The notes beneath the pieces are model-generated. The model did not search any database. It had not been told where the DNA came from and saw only the letters and a program-made list of their open reading frames with translations. Of a stretch of 64,000 nucleotides of DNA, positions 28,823 to 34,794 are shown one piece after another (positions within the stretch are counted from its first letter, which is position 1; every line of letters starts with the position of its first letter). The DNA comes from Candidatus Marinarcus aquaticus (GTDB lineage Bacteria > Campylobacterota > Campylobacteria > Campylobacterales > Arcobacteraceae), in NCBI RefSeq assembly GCF_004116335.1, contig NZ_PDKN01000002.1, positions 310,001 to 374,000 of the forward strand, given 5' to 3'. A program made the translations under genes and the position numbers.

Positions 28823-30031
28823 ATGGTGCCAAATCGATATCAAGAAGCAATAGAACACTCGAATATTGTCTCAAAAACTGATATTGATGGCATTATCACC
28901 TTTGTCAATGAGGAATTCTGCAATCTTTTAGGCTACACCAAAGAGGAACTTATTGGTAAAAACCACAACATTGTACGACACCCTGAAGTGCCCTCTTCTA
29001 ACTTTGAAGAGCTTTGGCGTGTGATTAAACAAGAGAAACAAACTTATAAATCTACGGTTAAAAATTTAACAAAAGATGGTCGCACGGTCTATTTGAATAC
29101 CACTATTACTCCTATCTTTAATGAAAAAGAAGCCATAGAAGAGTTTATTGCTATTCGTTATGATGTGACGCAAGAAGTGGAGTTAAAAAAGAATCTAGAG
29201 CAAAAAGATGCCCAACTTCAACAACTCAATTTAACACTTGAAGAGCGTGTTAAAGAGCAAACACAACAACTGCACGAACTCAATAAAACGTTAGAACAAC
29301 GAGTCAAACAAGAAATTGAGAAAAATGAAGAGAAACAAAAATTGCTTTTTTGGCAATCACGTATGGCTTCATTGGGGCAAATGTTGGCCAATATTGCACA
29401 CCAATGGCGACAACCCCTTACAGAGCTTAACTTAACATTTTTTAATATTAAAAAAGCGATGAACGATAAAAACATTAAAAGTGTTGAAGCGTACTACAGC
29501 GAGGGTAAAAAAATCATCAAATCGATGTCTCAAACCATTGATGACTTTTCTAACTTTTTTGACCCACATAAGGATGTCGAACCATTTTTATTAAATGAGG
29601 CCATCTCACAAGCTTTAGAGATACTTTCAAAAATGATTACACGAGAGAATATAAACGTATCATGTGAGTATGAAGAGATTGAGGTTTTAGGGGTTAAAAA
29701 TGAACTGGAACAAGTCATTATTAATCTTATTCAAAACAGTACAGATATGTTTAAACTTCACCAAATACAAACGCCTCGTATTGTGATTAAAACTTACATA
29801 AAAAAAAGCTTTGCTTTGATTGAATTTTTGGACAATGCTGGAGGTATTGCGCCTCAAAATATAGATAAAATTTTTGAACCCTATTTTACAACCAAACATA
29901 AAAGCAGTGGCACAGGATTAGGGCTTTTTATGTCAAAGCTTATAATTGAAAAGAGTCTTAATGGCACCCTAAAAGTATCCAATAAAGATGCAGGTGCCCT
30001 CTTTACTGTAACCATACCTTTACATATTTAA
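28823..30031 (+). CDS. Soluble PAS sensor histidine kinase
   Basis: 402 residues, no membrane segment. An Aer-like PAS domain (about 10-115) has the signature KNHNIVRHPEVP shared by several proteins in this window. A long coiled coil (about 125-180, heptads with Glu/Gln/Leu) leads to the H-box NIAHQWRQPL with H193, then HATPase_c with DNAGGIAPQ and GTGLGLFM. The Aer-like PAS suggests a bound flavin and redox/oxygen sensing, which is inference. The response regulator 8 bases downstream is its natural partner. The ATG at 28823 lacks a good ribosome site, so the exact start is unsure (GTG 28826 is possible). Confidence 0.87.
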   Translation: MVPNRYQEAIEHSNIVSKTDIDGIITFVNEEFCNLLGYTKEELIGKNHNIVRHPEVPSSNFEELWRVIKQEKQTYKSTVKNLTKDGRTVYLNTTITPIFNEKEAIEEFIAIRYDVTQEVELKKNLEQKDAQLQQLNLTLEERVKEQTQQLHELNKTLEQRVKQEIEKNEEKQKLLFWQSRMASLGQMLANIAHQWRQPLTELNLTFFNIKKAMNDKNIKSVEAYYSEGKKIIKSMSQTIDDFSNFFDPHKDVEPFLLNEAISQALEILSKMITRENINVSCEYEEIEVLGVKNELEQVIINLIQNSTDMFKLHQIQTPRIVIKTYIKKSFALIEFLDNAGGIAPQNIDKIFEPYFTTKHKSSGTGLGLFMSKLIIEKSLNGTLKVSNKDAGALFTVTIPLHI

Positions 30032-30039
30032 GGATAACG

Positions 30040-30729
30040 ATGATTAACCGACAACAACTTAAAGACTTAAAACTTCTTATTGTTGAAGATGAAAAAAAAC
30101 TCTCTACTTTTTTAAAAGATGCCATTTGTGAATATTTTGCGAGCGTTACTTTAGCAAGTAACGGTGAAGAGGGGATCAATAAGTTTAATAAAATACACCC
30201 TGATGTTATTATAACAGATATTATGATGCCAAAAATGGATGGTTTACAGATGGCAAAATCTATCAAAGAGATTAATAAAGAGGCACATATTATTGTTTTA
30301 AGTGCTTTCAGTGAAAAAGAAAAACTTCTTAAATCCATTGATGTGGGGATAAATAAATACTTTATTAAACCGTTTGATCCCGATGAACTTTTACATCACA
30401 TTGATAAAATTGCTTTAAAGTTACATAACCGACGTTATATGAATATCAATAAAGAGTTTATGTTTGATAAAAACAGTAAAAATTTGTATCAAAAAGAGCA
30501 GCTTGTCAAACTCACTCCACGAGAGCGAGAGTTTTTTGCACTGTTGGTTCAAAATGCTAATATGATTGTAGGTATTGAGTTGATTAAACGTACCCTTTGG
30601 CCTAAAGAGCAAGAGATCTCACCTGAACGATTACGAACTTTTATTAAAAGAGTACGCATTAAAACATCAAAAAATCTTATAGACAATATCTCTGGACAAG
30701 GTTATACTTTATCGAAAGACAATATTTAA
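30040..30729 (+). CDS. OmpR/PhoB-like response regulator
   Basis: 229 residues: a receiver (D17-E-D acidic cluster, phosphoacceptor D60 in VIITDIMMPKMDG, K in FIKPFD) and a winged-helix output domain with the sequence KLTPREREFFALLVQN and, in the recognition part, ERLRTFIKRVRIK. It is encoded right after the PAS kinase (AAGGATAACG before the ATG). Targets are unknown; the converging nrdG/nrdD operon overlaps its last 21 bases, and anaerobic genes lie nearby. Confidence 0.9.
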   Translation: MINRQQLKDLKLLIVEDEKKLSTFLKDAICEYFASVTLASNGEEGINKFNKIHPDVIITDIMMPKMDGLQMAKSIKEINKEAHIIVLSAFSEKEKLLKSIDVGINKYFIKPFDPDELLHHIDKIALKLHNRRYMNINKEFMFDKNSKNLYQKEQLVKLTPREREFFALLVQNANMIVGIELIKRTLWPKEQEISPERLRTFIKRVRIKTSKNLIDNISGQGYTLSKDNI

Positions 30730-31371
30730 ATCTTGACTGAGCCTACTTGTGTCAAATGGGTGAATGGGCTCCTTGATATTACTTAAATGAGTGGGAGTCA
30801 AAAGAAAATTTTGTACAAAATAGCTGTTTTTATAACCCAATGCTACTAATGTGTTAATAATTTCATTGATGTCATTAACATTGAGTAAATCACTGTGCAA
30901 GGTGGTACGAACTTCATGCGCAATACCACAACCAATTACAAAACGCAAACTCTCTTCAAAACGCTCATACTCTTTATTTTTTGTGATGTTGTAAAATTTT
31001 GATTTAGGGGCTTTAAAATCTAAAGCAACATAATCCAACAAGTCATGTAAAATGAGCTGCTTTAAAGCATTGGTATGTAAACCATTGGTATCTAATTTGA
31101 TTTTAAATCCCATCGATTTTATAATAGTACAAAGTTCAAAAAGATTATGTTCCAACGCTTCTCCACCACTTAGAACCACACCATCAAGCAATCCTTGTCT
31201 TCGGTTAAGAAATTCAAATATATCTTCATAGCTGTAAAGTGAGGATTCTGGGCAGAGTACAATATCTCTGTTGTAACAGTACACACATCGCATATTGCAC
31301 CCTGAAAACCACAAAACAGATGCTAAGTGGTCAGGGTAATCCGTAGTGGTAAATGGTGTTATATCATGCAC
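30709..31371 (-). CDS. nrdG: Anaerobic ribonucleotide reductase activase NrdG (radical SAM)
   Basis: About 220 residues. The radical-SAM cluster motif is SGCNMRCVYCYN (C-x3-C-x2-C), followed by the SAM-binding GGEAL segment. It makes the glycyl radical on the anaerobic ribonucleotide reductase. The family normally begins near DITPFTT-DYPDH, which supports GTG 31371 as start; an in-frame GTG at 31413 would give a 50-base overlap with the small gene. With GTG 31371 the overlap is 8 bases (GTGCATGA), like the other junction in this operon. Its last 21 bases overlap the converging response regulator. Confidence 0.92.
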   Translation of the reverse strand: MHDITPFTTTDYPDHLASVLWFSGCNMRCVYCYNRDIVLCPESSLYSYEDIFEFLNRRQGLLDGVVLSGGEALEHNLFELCTIIKSMGFKIKLDTNGLHTNALKQLILHDLLDYVALDFKAPKSKFYNITKNKEYERFEESLRFVIGCGIAHEVRTTLHSDLLNVNDINEIINTLVALGYKNSYFVQNFLLTPTHLSNIKEPIHPFDTSRLSQDLNIVFR

Positions 31372-31531
31372 TCTTTTTTGGTTCAATAAACTCTTTTCTT
31401 TGTTGGTGTTCACCTTTTTTTCCTATATTAAAACTCTCTACTGGTCTGTGATAACCCATAACACGAGTATATACTACGCATTTTCTTCTTTGTTCTTGCA
31501 TTGTTCTAAGCAAGTTCTCATTATTTAGCAT
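31364..31531 (-). CDS. Stand-alone glycyl-radical domain of class III ribonucleotide reductase
   Basis: A 55-residue frame missed by usual length cutoffs. It carries YTRVMGYHRPVESFNIGKK followed by GEHQQRKEF, which matches the C-terminal glycyl-radical loop of one-piece NrdD proteins (form RV-x-GY-x-RPV, then N-x-GK-x2-E-x3-R); the Gly in VMGY is the expected radical site. AAGGAG lies 8 bases before the ATG at 31531. It overlaps the nrdD stop by 7 bases and nrdG by about 8. The reading frame of nrdD cannot enter this one without a shift, and a stop lies in this frame 15 bases before the ATG, so it is probably a separate polypeptide. It would complete the reductase, activated by NrdG. Confidence 0.85.
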   Translation of the reverse strand: MLNNENLLRTMQEQRRKCVVYTRVMGYHRPVESFNIGKKGEHQQRKEFIEPKKSA

Positions 31532-33636
31532 GCTTCTTTCTCCTTTTCATTAAGTTTTTCAAGTAATATTGCATCACATTTTGGGCAAAATTCATGCTCT
31601 CCATGGATATATCCATGCACTTCACATACAGAAAAAAGTGGAGTGATAGTGATGTATGGAAGCTTGAAATTAGTGATGATATTTTGCACCAATTTTCGAC
31701 ACGCCTCAGCTGAGCTGATTCTCTCTTTCATGTACATGTGTAAAACGGTTCCTCCTGTATATTTGCATTGTAATTCATCTTGTAAAGTTAAAGCTTCAAA
31801 AGGATCATCCGTCAAATCAACGGGAAGTTGAGAAGAATTGGTATAGTAGATGTTTTTACCACTGCCTGCTTGTATGATATTCTCATATCTTTTTTTATCT
31901 TCTTTTGCAAAACGGTACGTTGTACCTTCTGCAGGAGTGGCTTCTAAGTTGTACAGATTACCTGTTGCTTCTTGGTATTTCACCATTTGTAAACGCATAA
32001 AATCAAGAATTTCAATGGCCAACTCTCTTCCATACTCTTTGGATATGTCATGTTTATCATTGGTAAAGTTACGAATCATCTCATTGATGCCATTGACACC
32101 AATGGTTGAAAAGTGGTTGTTGAAACTCTTTAAATAGCGTTGTGTATAAGGGAAAAGTCCTCTCTCATAAAGATCATTGACAAAAACACGTTTCTTTTCC
32201 AAAGTAGAGTGTGCTAAGTCCATGAGCTCTTTTAATCGAGCCAGTAATGCTTTTTTGTCCTCTTTATATAAGTACCCCAATCTGGCCATATTAATTGTAA
32301 CCACGCCTAAACTCCCCGTCATCTCTGCACTTCCAAACAGCCCTCCTCCTCTTTTTAAGAGTTCTCGTAAATCCAATTGTAATCGGCAACACATGCTTCG
32401 TACATGCCCAGGTTTATACGCTTCTTCGTTGATAATACGCTCACCCTTATTGTTGGTGGTGTATTGGCTACCAATGAAGTTTTGAAAGTAAGAACTTCCA
32501 ATTTTAGCTGTGTTTTCAAATAGAATATCGGTGTTTTCACCATGCCAGTCAAAATCTTCAGTGATATTTACCGTTGGAATAGGAAATGTAAAAGGCTGAC
32601 CGGTTTTATCTCCTTCGGTCATTACTTCATAATAGGCTCTGTTTATGAGATTCATCTCTTTTTGAAAGTGTTTATAACAAAGCTTCTCTAAAGAGTCACA
32701 CCCTTTGTGTAAAGCTTGCTCTTCTAAGTGAGAATTATTGATGTCTTTAAACAAATGCACGTCATTTCGTGTGGGAATTTGCTTTTTTAAATCTTCAGGC
32801 ACGGTCCAGTCAATAGTGATATTGGTAAATGGACTTTGCCCCCAACGAGCAGGAACATTAAGATTATAGACAAAACTTTTAATTGCTTTTTTAACCTCTT
32901 TGTATCCCAGTTGGTCTTTAAAAACATACGGAGCCAAGTATGTGTCAAAACTGCTGAAAGCTTGTGCCCCTGCCCATTCACTTTGTAATATCCCTAAGAA
33001 GTTTGCCATTTGACCTAAAGCTTCTCTGAAGTGATTGGGTGCTTGGCTCTCTACTCTTCCTCGAACACCATTAAAACCTTCATTTAAAAGTAGCCTTAAG
33101 CTCCAGCCTGCACAATAACCACTTAAACAATCCAAGTCATGAATATGATAATCTGCATTACGATGAGCATACCCCTCTTCTTTTGAATAAATCTTGTCCA
33201 ACCAGTAGTTTGCAATGACTTTTCCTGCGGTGTTATTGATTAATCCTGCATGGGAGTACCCTGTATTTGAGTTTGCATTTATGCGCCAGTCACTTCCATT
33301 GATGTACTCCTCAATGGTTTGTGTGGAATTAATGTAAGTTGTGTCATCATTGAGTCCTAAAACGTGCTCACGTTGCATTTTATGTATGTTTCTGTAAAGC
33401 ATAAAGGATTTCATGACATCAAAATAACGTCCCTTATAAAGCTCTTTTTCTATAATATCTTGAATATCCTCAACGGCTGCTGCTCGTCTGTTTTTAATTT
33501 TTTCTAATACATTAAAAAATATGTCACTGTCGTATCGAATATGTTCACTTTTAAACGCTTTTTTGATGGCATCTTCAATTTTAAAAGGTTCAAAAAGTTC
33601 ATAATTTCCATTACGTTTGAGTATTGTTTCTACCAT
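31525..33636 (-). CDS. nrdD: Anaerobic (class III) ribonucleoside-triphosphate reductase, main subunit lacking the glycyl-radical loop
   Basis: About 703 residues. It has an N-terminal ATP-cone (VETILKRNGNYELFEPFKIEDA...) for allosteric control and the ten-stranded barrel with CCRLQLDLRELLKRGGGLFG and VPARWGQSPFTNIT segments. The C-terminal zinc region CEVHGYIHGEHEFCPKCD is present, but the protein ends about 15 residues later at EAC, before the radical loop that one-piece NrdD proteins carry next. The loop is encoded by the next gene. The start is ATG 33636 with AAGGATAATT; the frame is open to 33675, but that extension lacks support. Two palindromes lie upstream (33698-33743). It makes dNTPs without oxygen. 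Confidence 0.93.
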   Translation of the reverse strand: MVETILKRNGNYELFEPFKIEDAIKKAFKSEHIRYDSDIFFNVLEKIKNRRAAAVEDIQDIIEKELYKGRYFDVMKSFMLYRNIHKMQREHVLGLNDDTTYINSTQTIEEYINGSDWRINANSNTGYSHAGLINNTAGKVIANYWLDKIYSKEEGYAHRNADYHIHDLDCLSGYCAGWSLRLLLNEGFNGVRGRVESQAPNHFREALGQMANFLGILQSEWAGAQAFSSFDTYLAPYVFKDQLGYKEVKKAIKSFVYNLNVPARWGQSPFTNITIDWTVPEDLKKQIPTRNDVHLFKDINNSHLEEQALHKGCDSLEKLCYKHFQKEMNLINRAYYEVMTEGDKTGQPFTFPIPTVNITEDFDWHGENTDILFENTAKIGSSYFQNFIGSQYTTNNKGERIINEEAYKPGHVRSMCCRLQLDLRELLKRGGGLFGSAEMTGSLGVVTINMARLGYLYKEDKKALLARLKELMDLAHSTLEKKRVFVNDLYERGLFPYTQRYLKSFNNHFSTIGVNGINEMIRNFTNDKHDISKEYGRELAIEILDFMRLQMVKYQEATGNLYNLEATPAEGTTYRFAKEDKKRYENIIQAGSGKNIYYTNSSQLPVDLTDDPFEALTLQDELQCKYTGGTVLHMYMKERISSAEACRKLVQNIITNFKLPYITITPLFSVCEVHGYIHGEHEFCPKCDAILLEKLNEKEKEAC

Positions 33637-33697
33637 AATTATCCTTTTTACAAATGCCATTTTAAAGCAGTGCAACTTAATAGATAATTATTTTTTT

Positions 33698-33743
33698 TGA
33701 CACAAAAGTGTCATTTTATAGAGTTTGTGACACAAAAGTGCCA
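33698..33743. promoter_or_regulatory. Tandem 16-bp palindromes upstream of nrdD (putative operators)
   Basis: TGACAC-AAAA-GTGTCA (33698-33713, perfect) and TGACAC-AAAA-GTGCCA (33728-33743, one mismatch) are spaced 30 bp apart, close to three helical turns. On the minus strand they flank a TATAAA element that would be the nrdD -10. This is a typical layout for cooperative repression. The arrangement recalls paired NrdR boxes, but the sequence differs from the NrdR consensus (arms 4 rather than 8 apart), so the regulator is unknown. Confidence 0.7.
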
Positions 33744-33756
33744 CAAAATAATTTTA

Positions 33757-34794
33757 TTAGAGTTTTGATTTAATATTGGAGATATTACTTAAAAGCATGC
33801 CCAGATGTTTGGTATGATCTGAAGCTTCTAAAGCAATTTTGAGTGTCATGGTAATAGGTACGGCTAAAAACATGCCAACAATACCCAAAACCCATCCCCA
33901 AAATATCAGGGAGAAGAAAATGACCATGGGTGAAAGTCCCAACTCTTTTCCCATAAATTTTGGTTCAATTACATTGCTGATGGCAATATTGATTATAAGA
34001 TAGATAATAATTAACCAAATGGTGGCTTCATAGTTTCCTGCAACAATGGAAATAACAATTGCGGGCAGTGAAGCAACAATGGAACCAACTACTGGAATAA
34101 AATTAAATAAAAAGGCTACAAATGCCCAAAGAATTGGGTTTTTGATTTCAAAAAAGAGCAATGCTACATAGATAAAAAAACCTGTCAGAAAACTGGTGAA
34201 AGTTTTAACGGTGAAGTATCGTTGTAAATTGTGTGAGAAAAGATTGAAACTGACCAGTTTTTGGTTGTCATTTCTAAAAATGAGTTTGATTTTTTTATGA
34301 AAAAGTTTGGACTCTGAGAGAATAAATGCAACCCCAATTGTAATCAACAATATTTTAGAGAGAATGGCTCCAAGATTTCCTACAAGCTCTGTTGTAAAGT
34401 TAAATAAAGAGTTGAAATTCAGAAGTTTTAAGATTTCTACTTTATTGACTTTGATACCATATTGATCAAGTAAGGATATGCTTGCGAGTGTAAGCTCTTT
34501 GATCTTCTCTTCGTATACAGGCAAGGATTTCATAAAATCAAGAAGTGAAGTATTGACCAAATAAACAATCAAAAATACCGAACCAGTAAAAGTAAGTAAC
34601 AAAATAGAATATGAGATGACGTTGGGAATATTTTTAGCTCTTAAAAAGTTTAAAAATGCCGATAAAATCGAAGAGATAAAAATAGAGAGCAGAAGTATAA
34701 CAACAATTTCACTGGCCACTTTCAAGCCACTGATCACAATCACAAAAAGTGCAAAATAGAAAAGAACCTGATTGATGGTATTTTTGGACTGCAT
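33757..34794 (-). CDS. AI-2E family transporter (PerM-like membrane protein)
   Basis: 345 residues with about eight hydrophobic segments in the pattern of the AI-2E/UPF0118 family: two or three at the N-terminus, a central hydrophilic loop (about 95-140), then the conserved C-terminal helices with FIPVVGSIVASLPAIV and EPKFMGKELGLSPMVIF. Members have been linked to quorum-signal export and to sodium/proton exchange; the substrate here is unknown. AAGGAG precedes the ATG. It is divergent from argF by a 158-base AT-rich gap in which I see no clear operator. nrdD lies 120 bases downstream with its own promoter. Confidence 0.88.
   Translation of the reverse strand: MQSKNTINQVLFYFALFVIVISGLKVASEIVVILLLSIFISSILSAFLNFLRAKNIPNVISYSILLLTFTGSVFLIVYLVNTSLLDFMKSLPVYEEKIKELTLASISLLDQYGIKVNKVEILKLLNFNSLFNFTTELVGNLGAILSKILLITIGVAFILSESKLFHKKIKLIFRNDNQKLVSFNLFSHNLQRYFTVKTFTSFLTGFFIYVALLFFEIKNPILWAFVAFLFNFIPVVGSIVASLPAIVISIVAGNYEATIWLIIIYLIINIAISNVIEPKFMGKELGLSPMVIFFSLIFWGWVLGIVGMFLAVPITMTLKIALEASDHTKHLGMLLSNISNIKSKL

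Follow-up and report, generated by a model that had tools for sequence, protein, structure and literature searches.

The window (the whole stretch of DNA that was analysed, 64,000 nucleotides from Candidatus Marinarcus aquaticus) carries nrdD and nrdG, which encode the class III ribonucleotide reductase (RNR) and its activase, and convergent with them a histidine kinase–response regulator pair. The features discussed below are as follows.

28823-30031, plus strand: PAS histidine kinase, its gene directly preceding that of the regulator; the PAS domain is NifL/Aer-like and no transmembrane domain was seen
30040-30729, plus strand: OmpR/PhoB-type response regulator, receiver plus winged helix (PF00072, PF00486), the proposed regulator of nrdDG
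30709-31413, minus strand: nrdG (NrdG2 type), radical-SAM activase of NrdD (TIGR02495 above cut-off)
31525-33636, minus strand: nrdD, class III (anaerobic) ribonucleoside-triphosphate reductase, 703 aa (PF13597, ATP-cone; NF006126 and TIGR02487 above cut-off)
33659-33666, minus strand: predicted -10 region TTTAAAAT, aligned with TATAAACT of relatives
33676-33680, minus strand: TTAAG, conserved spacer element at module index 34-38, at fixed spacing in two sets of relatives
33699-33714, minus strand: proximal box ATGAC-N6-GTGTC, position and layout shared with relatives; contains the first palindrome
33715-33720, minus strand: TATAAA, aligned with a conserved CATAAA just upstream of the box in relatives
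33729-33744, minus strand: distal box GTGGC-N6-GTGTC, the second copy, which lies 30 bp further upstream than the proximal one

The conserved ATG at 33636 was taken as the start of nrdD in preference to the TTG further upstream with which the longest open reading frame begins. The gene order hemB-kinase-regulator-nrdG-nrdD...argF-hemN is common to the window and Arcobacter records and, with the named relatives of nrdD, places the genome as Arcobacteraceae-like within Campylobacterales. The kinase-regulator pair lies near nrdDG in many relatives, one of which (L022) has an nrdD-nrdG-kinase-regulator run on one strand, and the kinase is in the same locus in 76 of 88 regulator loci, nearly always directly upstream of the regulator. 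Between nrdD and argF the window has a membrane-protein gene (33757-34794, permease-like as judged by eye); in several Arcobacter relatives nrdD and argF are immediate divergent neighbours.

The product of 30040-30729 has the receiver residues and C-terminal winged helix of an OmpR/PhoB-type regulator. Its winged helix scored 38.8 bits against the Trans_reg_C model (PF00486; cut-off 26.2). E16, D17, D60 and S/T88 of the receiver were present in 61/61 orthologs, and the receiver lysine is visible in the window's sequence (IKPF). Against NCBIfam the kinase and regulator gave weak generic matches only, far below any equivalog cut-off. The PAS domain of the kinase resembles those of NifL and Aer and, in nearly all of 57 kinases, has an arginine and a tryptophan 13 residues apart (R-x12-W), as do R57 and W70 of Aer, which contact FAD. 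As judged from these sequence features, the kinase probably reads the cellular redox state through a PAS-bound FAD.

Two 16-bp palindromes lie in the 120-bp intergenic region 5' of nrdD, with the positions and sequences given in the original prediction. TGACACAAAAGTGTCA (33698-33713) has perfect 6-bp arms, and TGACACAAAAGTGCCA (33728-33743) is a palindrome copy with one change; their starts are 30 bp apart, with a spacer of 14 bp. A TATAAA was correctly noted between them on the nrdD (minus) strand, from 33720 to 33715. The genome search proposed with that prediction confined the exact pattern to the nrdD promoter region: it occurs once in the 2.53-Mb genome, and allowing one mismatch added two places only, the distal element and G000:C1:242388. 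The latter is inside a coding sequence and was rejected as a further operator. That a single intergenic region of 120 bp should hold two such palindromes at a 30-bp distance is far beyond chance.

A conserved direct repeat in the nrdD promoter

We compared up to 300 bp of DNA 5' of nrdD from about 75 relatives and from 46 family genomes, the window's own included. About 80 bp before the nrdD ATG, most relatives carry a direct repeat, RTGAC-N6-GTGAC, with an 11-bp period, and most have a single such box. When the promoters were anchored on the repeat and aligned without gaps (repeat halves at 0 and 11), a module was found downstream of it, with TTAT near 24, TTAAC or TTAAG at 34-38 and the -10 at 48-55. 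Two sets of relatives, with 25 and 29 non-redundant sequences, share this rigid module. The proximal element of the window fits it exactly, with ATGAC from 33714, GTGTC, TTAAG from 33680 and TTTAAAAT from 33666. The -10 of nrdD is therefore probably TTTAAAAT at 33666-33659, downstream of the proximal box. The TATAAA at 33715-33720 had been taken for the -10, but the position of the -10 in the conserved module speaks against this.

A single base, GTGAC to GTGTC, converts the direct repeat into the palindrome. Of 72 distinct relatives, 65 have the A of the direct repeat at this diagnostic base, six the T of the palindrome and one a G. The proximal box of the window is one base off the RTGAC-N6-GTGAC consensus and the distal box two bases off. 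The sister species (G077) has GTGGC at the diagnostic half-site, so the palindrome is not conserved even within the genus, and just the inner half (ATGTC) of its distal box is recognisable. The check in relatives on which the predicted operator hung thus had two sides. The palindromic form did not hold, since relatives have a direct repeat instead; the operator itself did, as a real nrdD regulatory site with a strongly conserved underlying box. The palindromes of the window are most likely, on this alignment, drifted copies of the conserved direct-repeat regulator site.

The linked response regulator and the box

An 11-bp direct repeat is a signature of the OmpR/PhoB family, and the linked response regulator is therefore the candidate to read it. 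For comparison, ArcA sites are direct repeats, often three to five, with 11 bp from centre to centre (PMC3798270), and PhoP of M. tuberculosis recognizes 7-bp repeats with 4-bp spacers (PMC4832192). The relatives' boxes have the same head-to-tail arrangement of about 11 bp.

To follow the regulator across the Arcobacteraceae we relied on a clean gap between orthologs (at least 204 bits) and paralogs (at most 138 bits). An ortholog is present in 33 of 61 genomes, all 33 of which have nrdD. The regulator thus occurs in 33/47 nrdD-plus and 0/14 nrdD-minus genomes (Fisher p 2e-6, shared ancestry ignored). The box, scored in this family count with at most one mismatch, precedes nrdD in 32/33 regulator-plus and 0/13 regulator-minus readable promoters (Fisher p 1e-10, shared ancestry ignored); the sole regulator-plus promoter lacking it has a contig end nearby. 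Both states are present within genera g11 and g13, and in genomes of g6 and g15 nrdD and the regulator were lost together. A small tree of 30 nrdD fragments forced only two label changes, so there are few independent events. Across the order, the box was found in 41/43 genomes with a classic regulator, in 0/19 with a divergent regulator and in 3/13 with no regulator found. The three genomes with a good box and no regulator found are fragmented MAGs, and L008 is a regulator-plus genome without the box.

Some promoters lacking the box have another site. An FNR-type inverted repeat is present at nrdD in 6/13 regulator-minus versus 1/33 regulator-plus promoters of the Arcobacteraceae; in the window's genome, the FNR/Crp-type repeat TTGAY-N4-RTCAA is absent from the 160 bp upstream of nrdD. 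In several nrdD-plus, regulator-minus genomes a Crp/FNR-type HTH gene lies within about 10 kb of nrdD (nrdD contigs of G070, G085, G096, G102 and G123), as though it had taken the place of the linked regulator. Loss of Crp/FNR proteins was rejected as the cause of a swap in control, as HTH_Crp-type matches occur in all 61 family genomes, with seven in that of the window. A review describes Arcobacter butzleri as having no FNR/CRP homologue, in contrast to the 61/61 found here, and the functions of its other regulators as unreported (PMC6682613).

What ties the protein to the box most tellingly is that the two change together. Classic regulators with a GTGAC box begin their recognition helix with (S/T)DER, or SSER in g15. 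The window's genus alone has SPER or TPER at this place, and it alone has GTGTC or GTGGC instead of GTGAC. In the divergent regulator clade with DSAIR, GTGACATANTTGTTTC is at the box position in Sulfurospirillum-like genomes, and an FNR-type box takes its place in four DAAVR-type genomes (behind L016, L017, L050 and L068). As read from these alignments, there were two joint changes of helix and box, one in the window's genus and the other in the Sulfurospirillum-like clade, and such matched changes amount to a natural experiment in protein-DNA specificity. Taken with the box layout, the co-occurrences and the gene linkage, they point, by comparison of genomes, to the box as the probable site of the regulator.

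Similar sequences were also seen elsewhere. Throughout the family, ccoN is preceded by a conserved element, AAGTGAC-N5/6-GTGACTTG, at about 28-30 nt from its ATG (L212-L241; L234 in the window's own genome). It is also present in genomes without the response regulator and is a separate element, which may act as DNA or as mRNA. GTGAC repeats precede ccoN in many genomes, again including the window's own; ccoN was rejected as a second target because they occur in the regulator-minus G071 and G087 too, with a spacing of 10 or 11 bp, and another factor may therefore read a similar sequence. Regulator-plus genomes have about three times the density of extra box matches, yet these are too few for a claim of a wider regulon. 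In such genomes, genes that by eye resemble nosZ and feoAB are preceded by box-like repeats (L278, L290, L294 and L332), and these genes are possible further members.

Proposed control of nrdDG and alternative readings

We propose, with a probability of about 0.8, that a redox-sensing two-component system (28823-30031 and 30040-30729) activates nrdDG through the direct-repeat box. The kinase would sense redox state via its PAS-bound FAD and, upon oxygen limitation, phosphorylate the regulator. Regulator dimers would then sit head-to-tail on RTGAC-N6-GTGAC, whose halves fall near positions -60 and -49 relative to the transcription start predicted near 33654, and activate nrdD-nrdG transcription, which would allow dNTP synthesis in the absence of oxygen. 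The box would in this species have been copied 30 bp further upstream, and the second half-site of each copy would have drifted to GTGTC, which produced the palindromes. Physical binding, activation rather than repression and the FAD/redox signal are the parts of this scheme that we infer.

It could be speculated that the regulator instead represses nrdDG aerobically, or exerts both signs via its two boxes. OmpR-family regulators can activate or repress, and the duplicated box of this species reaches about -90. On the other hand, the promoter has no good -35 and its box, at about -60/-49, precedes the -10, a layout that is typical of activation and suggests it here. Activation is also suggested by the FNR-type boxes that replace the box where the regulator is missing, as FNR and Dnr activate nrdD in other bacteria (PMC5645315); under simple repression, loss of the regulator would not call for rebuilding the promoter. 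We therefore consider repression unlikely. Slightly less probable still is that another dimeric regulator (of Crp/FNR, TetR or GntR type) binds TGACAC-N4-GTGTCA as an inverted repeat. The proximal site is indeed a perfect palindrome, candidate proteins exist among the seven Crp/FNR-type HTH matches, and a perfect TGACACTAATGTGTCA lies between genes in the sister species, away from nrdD (L304, G077 C7:136225-136241). Across the order, however, conservation does not extend to the inner bases of the palindrome; its half-sites are not spaced like those of FNR (TTGAT-N4-ATCAA) or of Crp, and true FNR-type boxes occur mainly in regulator-minus genomes. A palindromic regulator was rejected because relatives carry the direct repeat.

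The original prediction had also likened the elements to paired NrdR boxes in spacing and not in sequence, which agrees with our data: as with NrdR boxes, an RNR operon is preceded by a pair of 16-bp elements offset by about three helical turns, and the 14-bp spacer is within the 14-17 bp that NrdR tolerates between its boxes (PMC12051234), but the sequence differs. A variant NrdR could on this spacing bind both boxes. However, most relatives have one box while NrdR binds two, no NrdR was found in the window's genome, and 0/150 genomes of Campylobacterales scored above the model cut-off in a search that was positive in 9/14 control genomes. Of the two regulators suggested at the outset, one other than canonical NrdR is thus upheld, and a variant NrdR is highly improbable.

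Returning to activation by the linked two-component system, a broader view is that anaerobic DNA-precursor synthesis in Campylobacterales was ancestrally switched by a near-dedicated, flavin-based redox two-component system, and that this system was lost with nrdD or replaced by FNR-type control several times. We hold the odds of this to be about even.

Comparison with known systems

Two-component control of class III RNR is already known, since SrrAB of Staphylococcus aureus, which responds to respiratory status, is required for nrdD transcription (PMC12632269). The system proposed here from comparison resembles SrrAB/ResDE in this type of control. On the other hand, SrrAB is a broad respiration regulator in Firmicutes, while the pair described here has a NifL/Aer-like PAS domain, no transmembrane domain seen and ties to nrdDG by linkage and co-loss. 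We found no papers on RNR control in Campylobacterales or on this pair, most subscription journals being outside the coverage of the search. The linked kinase-regulator pair, the box and their spread through an order without NrdR appear to be new, and a putative regulator, box, target and likely signal can now be named for the control of nrdDG in this order.

ArcB is a membrane hybrid kinase, and in this and in half-site sequence the ArcAB system of Escherichia coli differs from the one proposed here. It is similar in responding to redox state, the predicted signal in our case, and in having a regulator that acts on 11-bp-spaced direct repeats (PMC3798270). Control of nrdDG by FNR or Dnr likewise achieves anaerobic activation of class III RNR (PMC5645315), as would the two-component system of the window; it differs in using a Crp-family protein on an inverted repeat, and in Arcobacteraceae its boxes are found mainly where the response regulator is missing.
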